This document shows, piece after piece, positions 839 to 43,153 of a stretch of DNA of 64,000 bases; position 1 is the stretch's first letter; each line of letters opens with the position of its first letter. The stretch comes from Pseudoalteromonas sp. Scap06 (GTDB lineage: Bacteria; Pseudomonadota; Gammaproteobacteria; Enterobacterales; Alteromonadaceae). The translations under genes were made by a program, and so were the position numbers. The stretch lies in NCBI RefSeq assembly GCF_013394165.1, contig NZ_CP041330.1, forward strand, positions 1,976,501 through 2,040,500, written 5' to 3'. A model generated the notes under the pieces. That model was not told the DNA's origin and ran no database searches. It saw nothing but the letters and a program-made list of their open reading frames with translations.

Positions 839-1627
839 ATGAAAATTAAAAACTTACTTCCTCTCGTTGCACTTAGTGCGTGTGCCTTAAGTTCAACAGC
901 TACTGCTGCTAATTGGAGCAGTACTGCGCTTCATATTAACAACGGTAATCATAAAAACCCGTTCACTGAACAAAAATCAAGCACCACGGTTTATTCATTG
1001 CAACATGCTTCAGGCCATGACTATGGGGATAACTTTTTCTTTATTGATTACAGCACTGATGGCAATGACGATAACTACCAAGATCAAGACTTTTACTTTG
1101 AAGGTTATTCTACGCTTAGCTTATCGGCCGTTATGGACGAAAAAGTAGCGTCAGGTGCGCTCGTTGATGTTGGCCTAACCATGGGTATTAATGCCGCAGG
1201 CGATGCTAAAGTTGTTAAATACTTACCGGGTGTAAAATTAAGCTGGGATGTACCTGGTTTTAATTTCTTCTCAACCCTTGTGACTGCCTACATTGATGAT
1301 AGTGAAGGTGTTGCGAAAGGCGGTGCGCCAATTGAAACCAACAGCTGGATGTTTGACGTTGCTTTTGAATATCCATTTATGATTGGCTCACAAAAATTTA
1401 GTGTTAAGGGTCATGCGGAATATATTGCTGAGCGTGAAGATGAGTTTGGTAATGACGTACGCGCTTGGTTTTTAGCTCAACCTATTATTGTATGGGATAT
1501 GGGGCATGCGCTAGAAATGAAAGAAAACACCTTACTGTTAGGTATGGAGTGGCAGTACTGGCATAACAAACTTGGTACAGATGTTACAGAGTCAGTTCCA
1601 CAAGTACACATAGAGTGGACTTTTTAA
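839..1627 (+). CDS. Tsx/OmpK-like nucleoside-specific outer membrane channel
   Basis: A 262-aa outer-membrane beta-barrel. The N-terminus has a clear Sec signal peptide (MKIKNLLPLVALSACALSSTATA). The mature part starts with ANWSSTALHINNG and contains the FFFIDYSTDG-type strand seen in the Tsx/OmpK channel family, which lets nucleosides diffuse across the outer membrane. It ends in an aromatic residue (...HIEWTF), as outer-membrane barrels usually do. An ATG at 833 is also in frame; 839 is preferred because it begins directly with the basic n-region of the signal peptide. No good ribosome binding site is visible for either. Substrate specificity is inferred from the family. Confidence 0.8.
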   Translation: MKIKNLLPLVALSACALSSTATAANWSSTALHINNGNHKNPFTEQKSSTTVYSLQHASGHDYGDNFFFIDYSTDGNDDNYQDQDFYFEGYSTLSLSAVMDEKVASGALVDVGLTMGINAAGDAKVVKYLPGVKLSWDVPGFNFFSTLVTAYIDDSEGVAKGGAPIETNSWMFDVAFEYPFMIGSQKFSVKGHAEYIAEREDEFGNDVRAWFLAQPIIVWDMGHALEMKENTLLLGMEWQYWHNKLGTDVTESVPQVHIEWTF

Positions 1628-40565: not shown

Positions 40566-40688
40566 TTAAGTTAAGCTGGTGATCCAACCTAAAATGGCAT
40601 TTAAACACCCTATTCCAGCAAATACGGCTAAGAATGCAAAAAAGTAAGCCGCATTGAACGGGTCTTTAAAGTCTTTATCATCTGACAT
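40566..40688 (-). CDS. 40-aa small membrane protein next to the MNIO locus
   Basis: A short ORF, ATG to TAA, with AAAGG as ribosome binding site 8 nt before the start. The N-terminus is charged (MSDDKDFKDPFN), followed by one hydrophobic helix (AAYFFAFLAVFAGIGCLNAI) and LGWITSLT. I do not recognise a family. It lies 72 bp downstream of the DUF2063 gene on the same strand, so it may belong to that operon or be an independent gene. Codon use looks normal, which supports coding. Confidence 0.6.
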   Translation of the reverse strand: MSDDKDFKDPFNAAYFFAFLAVFAGIGCLNAILGWITSLT

Positions 40689-40760
40689 GGGTACAACCTT
40701 TTATTAAGCACAACAAATAAAGGCGCTATAATAGACGATGTGAAATAATCAATAAAGAGC

Positions 40761-41513
40761 TTAGTCTTGATTTTTTGTCACTATAATTTGCCGCTGTGCC
40801 ATAGCTGTTAAGGTACTCAGTGCCCCTTGTGTTATTTGCTCAAGATTAAATTGTGGTGCATTTTCACTAACCTGTTGGCAAACCTGCTCAAACGTACTTC
40901 CCGCTTCATTTTCAATAATAGACAGTAGCATGGCGGTCATGGCATTTGTGGCCAAAAATTGCACCTCATCACTCTCATCGCGGTAAACAACAAAGAAATA
41001 CGGCTGCTCTGAAGGCTGTTGAGGTTGAAACTCTTCACTAATATGTTGCACTGGATAGTCGTAGCTTAAGTTACGCGCTGTTTTAGATAAATACAAAGGA
41101 GAGTGAGTAAGCTTATTAGCGCTTAGAGGGAGCTCACGGGGGTCAGCCTTCATTACAGACACGTCAAGCTCAATCCATTCATAATGGGCTAGCGCCAGCA
41201 TAAATATCGGATCAGACTCTCTAGGTACATAGCTTGTCATTAAATAGGTAATAAATTCTTCACCTATATCTAAAAAATAAGGAGATTGGCAATCATGCTC
41301 ACTAAAAAATTGACGAACCAGTAATAGCCACTGTTGATCACTATAGAGTGTTTTTAAAACTGGAAATGCCGATGAAACAAAGCCATTAATATTATTAAAA
41401 AACAGATCTCGGTAAATAGCCATTCGTCTGTCTTCAACATCGGTTGGACACGGCTGCTTATTAGGCTCTCGAATATGGGCCATAAACTCATTTTGCACAT
41501 CGATAAAACTCAT
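40761..41513 (-). CDS. HvfC/BufC-like DUF2063 protein (MNIO partner)
   Basis: A 250-aa cytosolic protein. The N-terminal DUF2063 region (FIDVQNEFMAHIREP, then RMAIYRDLFFNNINGFVSSAFPVL) matches the DNA-binding-like domain that is now seen as the precursor-recruiting partner of MNIO enzymes. The C-terminal half is a beta-rich domain (about 130-240). The gene is 54 bp downstream of the MNIO gene, in the fixed order precursor - MNIO - partner. Known partners form a heterodimer with the MNIO enzyme. Confidence 0.88.
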   Translation of the reverse strand: MSFIDVQNEFMAHIREPNKQPCPTDVEDRRMAIYRDLFFNNINGFVSSAFPVLKTLYSDQQWLLLVRQFFSEHDCQSPYFLDIGEEFITYLMTSYVPRESDPIFMLALAHYEWIELDVSVMKADPRELPLSANKLTHSPLYLSKTARNLSYDYPVQHISEEFQPQQPSEQPYFFVVYRDESDEVQFLATNAMTAMLLSIIENEAGSTFEQVCQQVSENAPQFNLEQITQGALSTLTAMAQRQIIVTKNQD

Positions 41514-41567
41514 AATAACGACTCTTATAAAACCCTAAAATAGCAAGTACTTATTAAATTCAAACAG

Positions 41568-42425
41568 CTAAGCACTTTGTGCTGTTGATAACAACTTAAG
41601 GTGCTTTGCCTGTAATTGATGGATTATATCCAGCTCTTTGGTTAACACATTAATAGGCGGAATATTAAAATCTCGCTCTAGCAGTGTGGGAAAAACACCA
41701 TGTGCTTGATATGCGCTATCGAGCAATTGCCAGACAGGGTCGATAACATCAGCACCATGAGTATCAATAATTAGGTCATCAGCTTCATTGTAGTGACCTG
41801 CAACATGGCAATAGGCAATTTTATTAGTTGGTAGCCCACTTAAAAACGCTTGTGCATCATAACCATGATTAATCGAGTTCACATAGATATTATTAACATC
41901 TAATAGCAGCTGGCAGTCTGCGTCTTCTAAAATAGCATTGGTAAATTCAAGCTCTGATAGCTGCTGACCAGGGGCACCATAATAAGACACATTTTCCAGC
42001 ACAAGTGGTCGCTCTAATATATCTTGTACCTGCTTAACCCGAGAAACGACATGTTTTATCGCTTCTTCAGTAAAAGGAATTGGCATTAAGTCATACATAT
42101 GGCCTTTACCTGAGCAATAGCTTAAATGTTCGCTATAAGCTTTAATATCGTGGTTATCAAAGAAAGATTTTAACGACTTTATAAATTCAATATCAAGCGG
42201 CTCAGGCGATCCAATAGAAAGTGACAAACCATGACAAACAAAGTGATTATTATTAGTTAACTGTTTAAATTGCTTTTCAAAGCGCCCACCTAGCTTTAAC
42301 CAGTTCTCTGGAGCCACTTCCATAAACTCAATTTGTTTTGGTATAGCATGCTCAAGCTCATCTAGCATTTCTCTTCGCAAGCCTAAACCGACCATGCCAA
42401 AGTTAGGCGTTTGATTTTGAGCCAT
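41568..42425 (-). CDS. MNIO-family (DUF692) multinuclear iron oxidase, HvfB/BufB-like
   Basis: A 285-aa TIM-barrel enzyme. It keeps the family start GLGLRREML, and metal-binding blocks VCHGLSLSIGS (about 69-79), YSEHLSYCSG (about 96-105), LENVSYYGAPG, LLLDVNNIYVNSINHGYDA (about 159-177) and YCHVAGH. MNIO enzymes use two or three iron ions to oxidise Cys residues of precursor peptides. Those with EGKCG-type precursors are reported to make thiooxazole or oxazolone-thioamide groups that bind copper. A Cys-rich EGKCG precursor lies directly upstream, so that reaction is likely but not shown. Confidence 0.92.
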   Translation of the reverse strand: MAQNQTPNFGMVGLGLRREMLDELEHAIPKQIEFMEVAPENWLKLGGRFEKQFKQLTNNNHFVCHGLSLSIGSPEPLDIEFIKSLKSFFDNHDIKAYSEHLSYCSGKGHMYDLMPIPFTEEAIKHVVSRVKQVQDILERPLVLENVSYYGAPGQQLSELEFTNAILEDADCQLLLDVNNIYVNSINHGYDAQAFLSGLPTNKIAYCHVAGHYNEADDLIIDTHGADVIDPVWQLLDSAYQAHGVFPTLLERDFNIPPINVLTKELDIIHQLQAKHLKLLSTAQSA

Positions 42426-42444
42426 AATAAAACCTCATATTAAA

Positions 42445-42466
42445 TAAAAAGGGCCTAATGGCCCTC
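42445..42466 (-). terminator. Terminator/attenuator between the precursor and MNIO genes
   Basis: On the minus strand AGGGCC, loop ATTA and GGCCCT are followed by TTTT. It lies between the precursor stop and the enzyme start and would let more precursor than enzyme be made. Confidence 0.7.
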
Positions 42467-42489
42467 TCGCTTATCTGAAAAAGAAAAGT

Positions 42490-42963
42490 TTAGTGGCTAC
42501 CACCACATTTACCTTCGCCGCACTTGCCTTCTTTTTTGGCCTTAGCATCACCACCACATTTACCTTCGCCGCACTTGCCTTCTTTTTTGGCCTTAGCATC
42601 ACCGCCGCATTTACCTTCGCCGCATTTGCCTTCTTTTTTGGCCTTAGCATCGCCACCACATTTACCTTCGCCGCACTTGCCTTCTTTTTTGGCCTTAGCA
42701 TCACCGCCGCATTTACCTTCGCCGCACTTGCCTTCTTTTTTCGCTTTAGCGTCGCCGCCACACTTGCCTTCTTTTTTCGCTTTAGCGTCGCCGCCACATT
42801 TTCCTTCGCCGCACTTGCCTTCACCAGCGTCTAATTGATAACCAGCTACCATTTGTTGAAACTCAAATGGATTAGCTTGAACATCAGTACTCGCCATACT
42901 TGCGCTGCCAACAACCACTGCGCCTAATGTTAATGCAATTGAGTTTTTCTTTATTGTATTCAT
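42490..42963 (-). CDS. HvfA/BufA-like Cys-rich RiPP precursor with EGKCG repeats
   Basis: A 157-aa exported precursor. The signal peptide (MNTIKKNSIALTLGAVVVGS... cut probably after DVQA, about residue 30) is followed by NPFEFQQMVAGYQLDAG. The rest is built from EGKCG(EGKCGG)DAKAKK repeats: 13 EGKCG motifs, hence 13 cysteines, and six DAKAKK spacers, ending in GSH. EGKCG is the modification motif of HvfA/bufferin-type peptides, whose Cys residues are oxidised by MNIO enzymes. Copper sequestration in the periplasm is the known role of relatives. The DNA repeat makes copy-number change likely. Confidence 0.9.
   Translation of the reverse strand: MNTIKKNSIALTLGAVVVGSASMASTDVQANPFEFQQMVAGYQLDAGEGKCGEGKCGGDAKAKKEGKCGGDAKAKKEGKCGEGKCGGDAKAKKEGKCGEGKCGGDAKAKKEGKCGEGKCGGDAKAKKEGKCGEGKCGGDAKAKKEGKCGEGKCGGSH
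42495..42837. repeat. Tandem 51-bp coding repeat in the RiPP precursor gene
   Basis: The core repeat encodes EGKCG-EGKCGG-DAKAKK (17 codons). Copies recur at 51-bp intervals, with one shortened 36-bp unit near 42740-42780 (towards the N-terminus) that lacks one EGKCG. Copies differ by a few synonymous changes (cac/gcc versus gcc/gcc for the spacer). Confidence 0.85.
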
Positions 42964-43153
42964 TTTTAATTACCTTTTAAACTTGTTGAACATCATTATA
43001 AAAGTAGACCGGTATTAAACTAAAAACTTTCAAATTTTCTATTTTTTTTGCAAATAAGTTATTTAACTCTCTATGAACGCTAATAAGCGTTTTATGAATT
43101 TATGATTTACAGGTAAACTGGCGCTCCTTTTTTAGTAATACATTAATCACACT

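Follow-up and report, generated by a model that had tools for sequence, protein, structure and literature searches.

What does a cysteine-rich repeat peptide do in a marine Pseudoalteromonas, when is it made, and where is the DoxX-like partner that accompanies many operons of its kind? These questions are raised by the hvfABC locus of Pseudoalteromonas sp. Scap06, which encodes a precursor with repeated EGKCG motifs (hvfA), an MNIO maturase (hvfB) and a DUF2063 partner protein (hvfC). The locus lies in a stretch of 64,000 nucleotides (contig NZ_CP041330.1, positions 1,976,501 to 2,040,500), here called the window, in which hvfA, hvfB, hvfC and a 40-aa open reading frame (ORF) follow one another on the minus strand. 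What is new here is a testable, predicted promoter-like element of the extracytoplasmic function (ECF) type that is common to unlinked doxX and to oxidative-repair genes. With a probability that we put at roughly 0.7, the locus as a whole is best explained as a largely vertically inherited hvfABC operon whose product would be a multi-site, Cu(I)-binding thiooxazole peptide, transcribed from that promoter as an arm of the response to oxidative stress in the envelope.

By analogy with relatives in which both steps are known, HvfC would recruit the leader of the precursor and HvfB would oxidise the Cys of each EGKCG motif to a 5-thiooxazole. The putative Sec signal would then direct the modified peptide into the periplasm, and Cu(I) may be bound there at many sites. 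Transcription is predicted to start from an ECF-type promoter common to unlinked doxX and to some methionine-sulfoxide reductase (Msr) and catalase genes, and a partial terminator after hvfA would favour the precursor over the enzyme. The peptide could in this way sequester redox-active copper, with DoxX acting in trans in most strains.

The family assignment of the three genes is clear. The hvfB product matches PF05114 (Pfam, E 4.2e-105) and scores 441.7 bits with the NCBIfam model NF003818 (cut-off 360), which makes it an HvfB-family MNIO, while the hvfC product scores 305.6 bits with NF050145 (cut-off 142), as expected of an HvfC-family partner. The repeat domain of the precursor reaches 131.5 bits with NF050137 (cut-off 19.5), and the HvfA equivalog model NF050188 is missed (79.4 bits, cut-off 95), so that the precursor belongs to the 'HvfA family' and is not called an equivalog. 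The window MNIO also falls short of the bufferin-type (BufB) model NF050167 (267.8 bits, cut-off 310) and of the methanobactin MbnB-type model TIGR04159 (37.8 bits, cut-off 325), and a Pfam search of the precursor gave no match, so it is not a DUF2282 (Buf1-type) precursor. HvfB aligned with PDB 3bww (E 1.6e-74) and HvfC with PDB 3dee (E 1.5e-9); furthermore, across 81 HvfB sequences, 27 Asp, Glu, His, Asn or Cys positions are conserved at 99% or more. No DoxX match occurs within the window, and both DoxX matches of the genome lie outside it. The window locus is an ordinary chromosomal hvfABC operon of a type already published. The original prediction, made from the letters of the window, had recognised the A-B-C order of precursor, MNIO and DUF2063 genes, their HvfABC membership and the lack of an adjoining DoxX gene, and all of this agrees with the ORF coordinates, the family matches and the DoxX search.

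The N-terminus of the precursor resembles a Sec signal by eye (KK, a hydrophobic stretch and an apparent end between VQA and NPFEF). In the printed translation, twelve of the 13 EGKCG motifs stand in six adjacent pairs and one stands alone, with six GDAKAKK spacers between them; this recount reproduces the numbers first proposed. The underlying DNA repeats in tandem every 51 bp (5.4 copies, 92% matches), and the array is, therefore, not a product of chance. Two long ORFs in alternative frames cross the hvfA repeats (42471-42824, minus strand; 42493-42838, plus strand); these are taken as by-products of the 51-bp repeat and not as genes.

Counts across relatives rest on the best 80 of 580, referred to as named loci, of which the nearest are from Pseudoalteromonas and the others from Shewanella, Paraglaciecola, Rheinheimera, Marinobacter, Ferrimonas and others. 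The precursors of 24 Pseudoalteromonas loci, the window included, carry 11-24 EGKCG motifs (median 13), those of 49 other loci 3-14, and two further Pseudoalteromonas genomes reach 34 (L187) and 58 (L188). This spread, together with the near identity of the tandem units, would suit a repeat number that merely drifts, 51-bp units being gained and lost by slippage and their copy number having no functional meaning. We consider such drift possible, though doubtful: EGKCG itself is conserved while the spacers vary across loci, and 70 of 73 loci have paired EGKCGEGKCG units, which makes the sites look selected however loose their count.

A precursor ORF stands beside hvfB in 72 of the 80 named loci, and the co-occurrence of precursor and MNIO genes that had been proposed as a check is thus borne out. 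For six of the eight misses the contig stops 132-285 nt upstream of hvfB (L010, L028, L031, L045, L046 and L063), and a cut-off EGKCG array is visible at the contig end in three of these; in the other two (L083 and L087), an ORF search upstream of hvfB-hvfC gave no recognisable EGKCG precursor. Draft assemblies seem to break inside the hvfA repeat array, and repeat counts taken from drafts may be unreliable. Genus-wide, the hvfA repeat is found in 106 of 108 genomes and HvfC is over cut-off in 107; the two genomes devoid of the repeat are G006, a real loss, and G084, where the contig ends ~180 nt upstream of hvfB. The surroundings are equally stable, with apt downstream in 76 of the 80 named loci, dusC upstream in 59 and both in 58, six loci being short contigs. 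Since this synteny is kept, the data speak for a largely vertical inheritance of hvfABC beside apt-dnaX in Pseudoalteromonas and its neighbours.

As to when the operon would be expressed, alignment of the hvfA upstream regions revealed a two-block element, TGAAAT followed by GGTCTACT, with the conserved ECF-type form TGAAAT-N15/16-GGGTCTACT. A broad pattern matched in 59 of 73 hvfA regions (each from 350 nt before to 60 nt after the first ATG). A matrix was trained on 63 hvfA sites, ten of the 73 regions giving no training site; the blocks lie 15 nt apart in 13 of these sites and 16 nt apart in 50. With the threshold set at the 99% level of Markov-resampled sequence, the matrix was tested on loci outside the training set. 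It placed 72 of 73 hvfA regions above threshold, these being the training set, and all 26 of the 26 unlinked doxX regions, of which the most distant are three loci (G112, G300 and G350) that belong to a different family in the order. Those 26 regions come from 30 genomes searched for doxX; the other four (G037, G100, G101 and G006) have no strong doxX match, and no element was found near their weak ones. The gene of an ECF sigma factor of the NF009170 family, followed in the Scap06 genome by a DUF3379 gene, was above threshold in 16 of 20 loci. Control genes rarely were (apt 4/70, dnaX 0/77, dusC 0/60), and neither were other ECF loci (0/10) or another DoxX paralogue (0/3 loci). Among the five ECF genes of the Scap06 genome that were scored, the NF009170 gene alone passed (0/4 for the others). 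This genome has 14 PF08281 matches, of which 8 were inspected for the element; L190 (ChrR-type), L189 and L192 have none near their start and L191 is below threshold, and all four were set aside as the regulator. A search for sigma-70 promoters (12 sites against 8.2 +/- 3.0 in shuffles) was uninformative. In genome G103 (C26, 90544 and 92728), two copies of the hvfA promoter pattern, identical in every letter, lie ~2.2 kb apart, as if the upstream region had been duplicated.

The TGAAA-N17/18-GGTCTW element might instead be bound by another regulator, such as a response regulator, and not be an ECF promoter. It is a predicted element with no mapped transcription start, its block spacing varies by one base, and the sigma-gene match lies partly within annotated coding sequence. 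Nevertheless, this alternative appears unlikely: the two blocks stand 15 or 16 nt apart, one of them contains the GTCTA that is also part of CGTCTAAH, the -10 consensus of neisserial sigma-E (PMC2893595; this and the other cited papers are drawn on in excerpt), the element lies just upstream of start codons, and it reappears upstream of one ECF sigma gene while being absent from 10 other ECF loci.

Which genes would respond together with hvfABC was explored by scanning six genomes for a strict form of the pattern, with the reversed pattern as control. Seven of the 76 matches are the hvfA sites; among the other 69, 25 are non-coding and stand just upstream of a correctly oriented gene. Eleven of these 25 precede genes for DoxX (3), a weak DoxX-family protein of 137 aa (2), MsrA (2), MsrAB (3) or a catalase-family protein (1), the last with a cytochrome b561 gene after it. 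Because the promoter-like sequence recurs at unlinked doxX and at oxidative-damage repair genes, the comparison suggests that copper is not the sole trigger of the operon and that oxidative stress in the envelope switches it on. At L174 (G000:C2, 2845-5840), a TonB receptor gene and the gene for the weak DoxX-family protein of 137 aa are divergent, with a pattern match on each side, and the same arrangement occurs in L185; in L185 and L186, the TonB genes were identified by likeness to that of L174.

CutA1 genes have a pattern match 76-174 nt upstream in all six genomes scanned (L175, L215, L218, L228, L243 and L251). The divergent gene is presumably fxsA-like and the CutA1 site may overlap its promoter, so that the CutA1 match may be real or may reflect such an overlap. 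These matches bear on the idea that the peptide is primarily a copper-induced periplasmic Cu(I) buffer of the bufferin kind, to which the common promoter element would be secondary. EGKCG products do bind copper (PMC13097082, PMC12538549); however, no copper exporter is among the identified genes behind the non-coding pattern matches, 11 of 25 being Msr, DoxX or catalase genes as described, and the excerpt on the Microbulbifer operon reports Cu(I) binding by its EGKCG peptide with no expression, no copper induction and slight protection in E. coli (PMC12538549). A role of this kind is, in our estimation, improbable. The original prediction was right about the copper-binding relatives and the likely chemistry, whereas a trigger by copper stress does not emerge from the sequence, the promoter pointing first to an oxidative-envelope input of the ECF type. 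The physiology of EGKCG peptides is unsettled between copper and oxidative defence, and it is there that the regulon prediction could matter.

An oxidative input has precedents. The H. influenzae four-gene operon for a periplasmic protein, UPF0276, DUF2063 and DoxX-like proteins, which corresponds to hvf, is RpoE2-dependent and HOCl-induced, and RpoE2 also controls msrAB (PMC7907618). Likewise, a Neisseria sigma-E operon contains homologues, and sigma-E controls msrA/msrB (PMC2893595). The parallel in regulation is close, although the proposed sigma factor may or may not belong to the same ECF group. In the open-licence literature, no title among the matches listed linked hvf to an ECF sigma regulon, and the combination of DUF3379 and sigma factor returned no paper.

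The regulon prediction also suggests a location for the 'missing' DoxX. In the Scap06 genome, doxX lies ~415 kb from hvfABC. G006, the single genome of the genus (1 of 108) that is devoid of hvfABC, contains no hvfA repeat, no hvfB match in an 8-kb region and a remnant of hvfC between dusC and the 40-aa ORF with apt; its doxX region holds a 43-residue remnant with the flanking genes in place, that is, doxX was lost in intact synteny. We propose, tentatively and at slightly less than even odds, that in Pseudoalteromonas and Shewanella-type relatives hvfABC and unlinked doxX are the halves of a split system; these halves would be co-induced, as would periplasmic Msr and catalase-type genes, by the NF009170-family sigma factor (with its DUF3379 partner), and could be lost together. 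The peptide would then act in an oxidant-triggered envelope defence that parallels H. influenzae RpoE2, perhaps via a different sigma factor.

Several observations count against the reading of hvfABC as an oxidant-responsive, promoter-sharing operon. Modification, metal and induction are predictions for this locus, and the Microbulbifer mmrABC operon, according to the excerpt, showed no expression and no induction by copper (PMC12538549). Over the six genomes, 76 matches of the strict pattern stand against 56 of the reversed control, and in the Scap06 genome alone 13 against 11; since these counts barely exceed the control, the pattern is meaningful by position only, and genome-wide counting was abandoned as proof of a promoter in favour of the position tests. 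Fourteen of the 25 non-coding matches precede genes for TonB receptors (3), CutA1 (6) or unrelated products (5), the latter being FlgO-like (L214), DUF4879 (L224), a pyridine-nucleotide disulphide oxidoreductase (L226), a protein without family (L238) and a chemotaxis receptor (L245), all seemingly unlinked to the theme. The tested loci are related, so that the matrix counts are not independent events, and the doxX site of Scap06 itself is degenerate (two mismatches, 11.8 bits). In at least 8 of the 20 NF009170 sigma loci, the element shares sequence with codons annotated as N-terminal; as coding constraint could mimic the element there, this part of the promoter evidence is weaker. Another ECF gene of the same genome, L191, has a two-mismatch match (1051-1079, plus strand) 10 nt upstream of its ORF, which scores 4.0 bits against the threshold of 7.4. 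Finally, the joint loss of hvf and doxX is one event in a doxX search of 30 genomes. G037 retains hvfABC with doxX cleanly deleted, and G100 and G101 have no strong doxX match (locus L317 of G101 starts beyond the doxX site and so has no bearing on doxX there); doxX is, therefore, not obligatory for hvf.

Within the operon, a hairpin with a T-rich tail is found in 61 of 71 hvfA-hvfB gaps of at least 20 nt (two shorter gaps were dropped), where 8.9 would be expected from resampled sequence. Because this terminator-like structure is conserved between the two genes, it is likely to give an excess of precursor over enzyme.

The operon itself joins a class of which more than 20,000 examples have been reported (PMC13097082). 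The idea that a long, multivalent peptide of this kind had not been described before does not hold, as the Buf_EGKCG/oxazolin type 1 architecture has been published: 17-residue units with two EGKCG each, and up to 58 Cys in Pseudoalteromonas, in a P. piscicida protein (PMC12452194). On the published description excerpted here, nothing essential separates these precursors from that of the window, in which one of the 13 motifs is unpaired. Nor is the layout distinct, as had been supposed, since 13 motifs is the median of the 24 Pseudoalteromonas loci and a DoxX neighbour (one DoxX query) occurs in only 3 of the 80 named loci. A beta-helix model published for a Pseudoalteromonas member is taken over as is.

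Compared with the oxazolin HvfABC of H. influenzae, the window locus shares a precursor with repeated EGKCG (here behind a signal-like N-terminus), the HvfB MNIO and HvfC (PMC13419390, PMC13097082), and the cofactor chemistry of HvfBC has been described (PMC13419390). It differs in having 13 sites where the excerpted source gives 6, in a precursor that misses the HvfA equivalog model, and in a doxX that is unlinked, the DoxX-like HvfX lying inside the H. influenzae operon; an HvfX of this kind is a feature of many, not all, HvfABC members. The H. influenzae operon is under the ECF sigma factor RpoE2 (PMC7907618), and control of the ECF type is predicted here as well. Fontiphorin is alike in its minimal operon of three genes (precursor, MNIO and PME1), its EGKCG repeats and its 5-thiooxazole class, but has 7 sites and another host lineage; fontiphorin and oxazolin repeats carry 5-thiooxazole and bind copper, and the class has been named captophorins (PMC13097082). 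The bulbicupramide operon mmrABC of Microbulbifer is likewise marine, composed of three genes and conserved genus-wide, with EGKCG cassettes flanked by Lys-rich segments; it differs in its 5-8 Cys and, in the excerpt, was not expressed under the conditions tried (PMC12538549). The Caulobacter sigma-F bufferins are similar in that an ECF sigma factor governs their MNIO operon, which includes DUF2063 and DoxX genes, but they have a DUF2282 precursor, the promoter GTAACC-N16-CGAA, and an induction by metals and not, in the excerpt, by generators of reactive oxygen species (PMC3511200).

Table 1. Positions of the hvfABC genes and associated features in the window
Feature	Position	Strand	Characteristics and basis
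hvfA	42490-42963	(-)	157 aa; signal-like N-terminus, 13 EGKCG, six GDAKAKK spacers; NF050137, tandem-repeat analysis
hvfB, MNIO maturase	41568-42425	(-)	PF05114, NF003818, PDB 3bww alignment
hvfC, DUF2063 / NGO1945_C partner	40761-41513	(-)	NF050145, PDB 3dee alignment
ECF-type promoter-like element TGAAAG-N15-CGGTCTA	43005-43032	(-)	predicted; ends 41 nt upstream of hvfA ATG
Terminator-like hairpin GAGAGGGCCATTAGGCCCTTTT, then TATTTAATAT, hvfA/hvfB gap	42447-42468	(-)	hairpin scan
40-aa ORF downstream of hvfC, containing a single hydrophobic stretch	40566-40688	(-)	conserved, apt-linked, not hvf-specific

The 40-aa ORF downstream of hvfC lies within the span first given (40566-42963) but goes unmentioned in the original prediction. 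It has a conserved FK[DE]PFN start (FKDPFN...W in the window) and a Trp; Pfam and PDB comparisons of it gave nothing useful, and where any source names it, the annotation is at most 'hypothetical protein'. That this membrane ORF might be a fourth operon gene substituting for DoxX, as its position 37-214 nt past hvfC in 73 of the 80 named loci and its absence wherever DoxX is a neighbour (three loci) could suggest, is highly improbable. All 108 genomes of the genus have it, G006 with neither hvfA nor hvfB among them, and so do 20 genomes of the order-level family f21, none of which has hvfC over cut-off; in this family it stands upstream of apt in all 11 genomes examined. As it occurs without hvf genes, the ORF was rejected as an hvf-specific component, although co-transcription could still exist. 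Across the order, 112 of 295 genomes carry it, compared with 79 of 295 in which hvfC exceeds its cut-off. Among 54 loci inspected, some of which share a genome, 48 have the ORF upstream of apt. From its genomic distribution, the 40-aa ORF is a predicted apt-linked micropeptide.

A second MNIO gene (PF05114) is present in the Scap06 genome (G000:C1:613721-614515, L002), with a DUF2063-type partner and an upstream ORF of 464 aa. No EGKCG repeat match was found at this locus, which possibly serves a different MNIO substrate.

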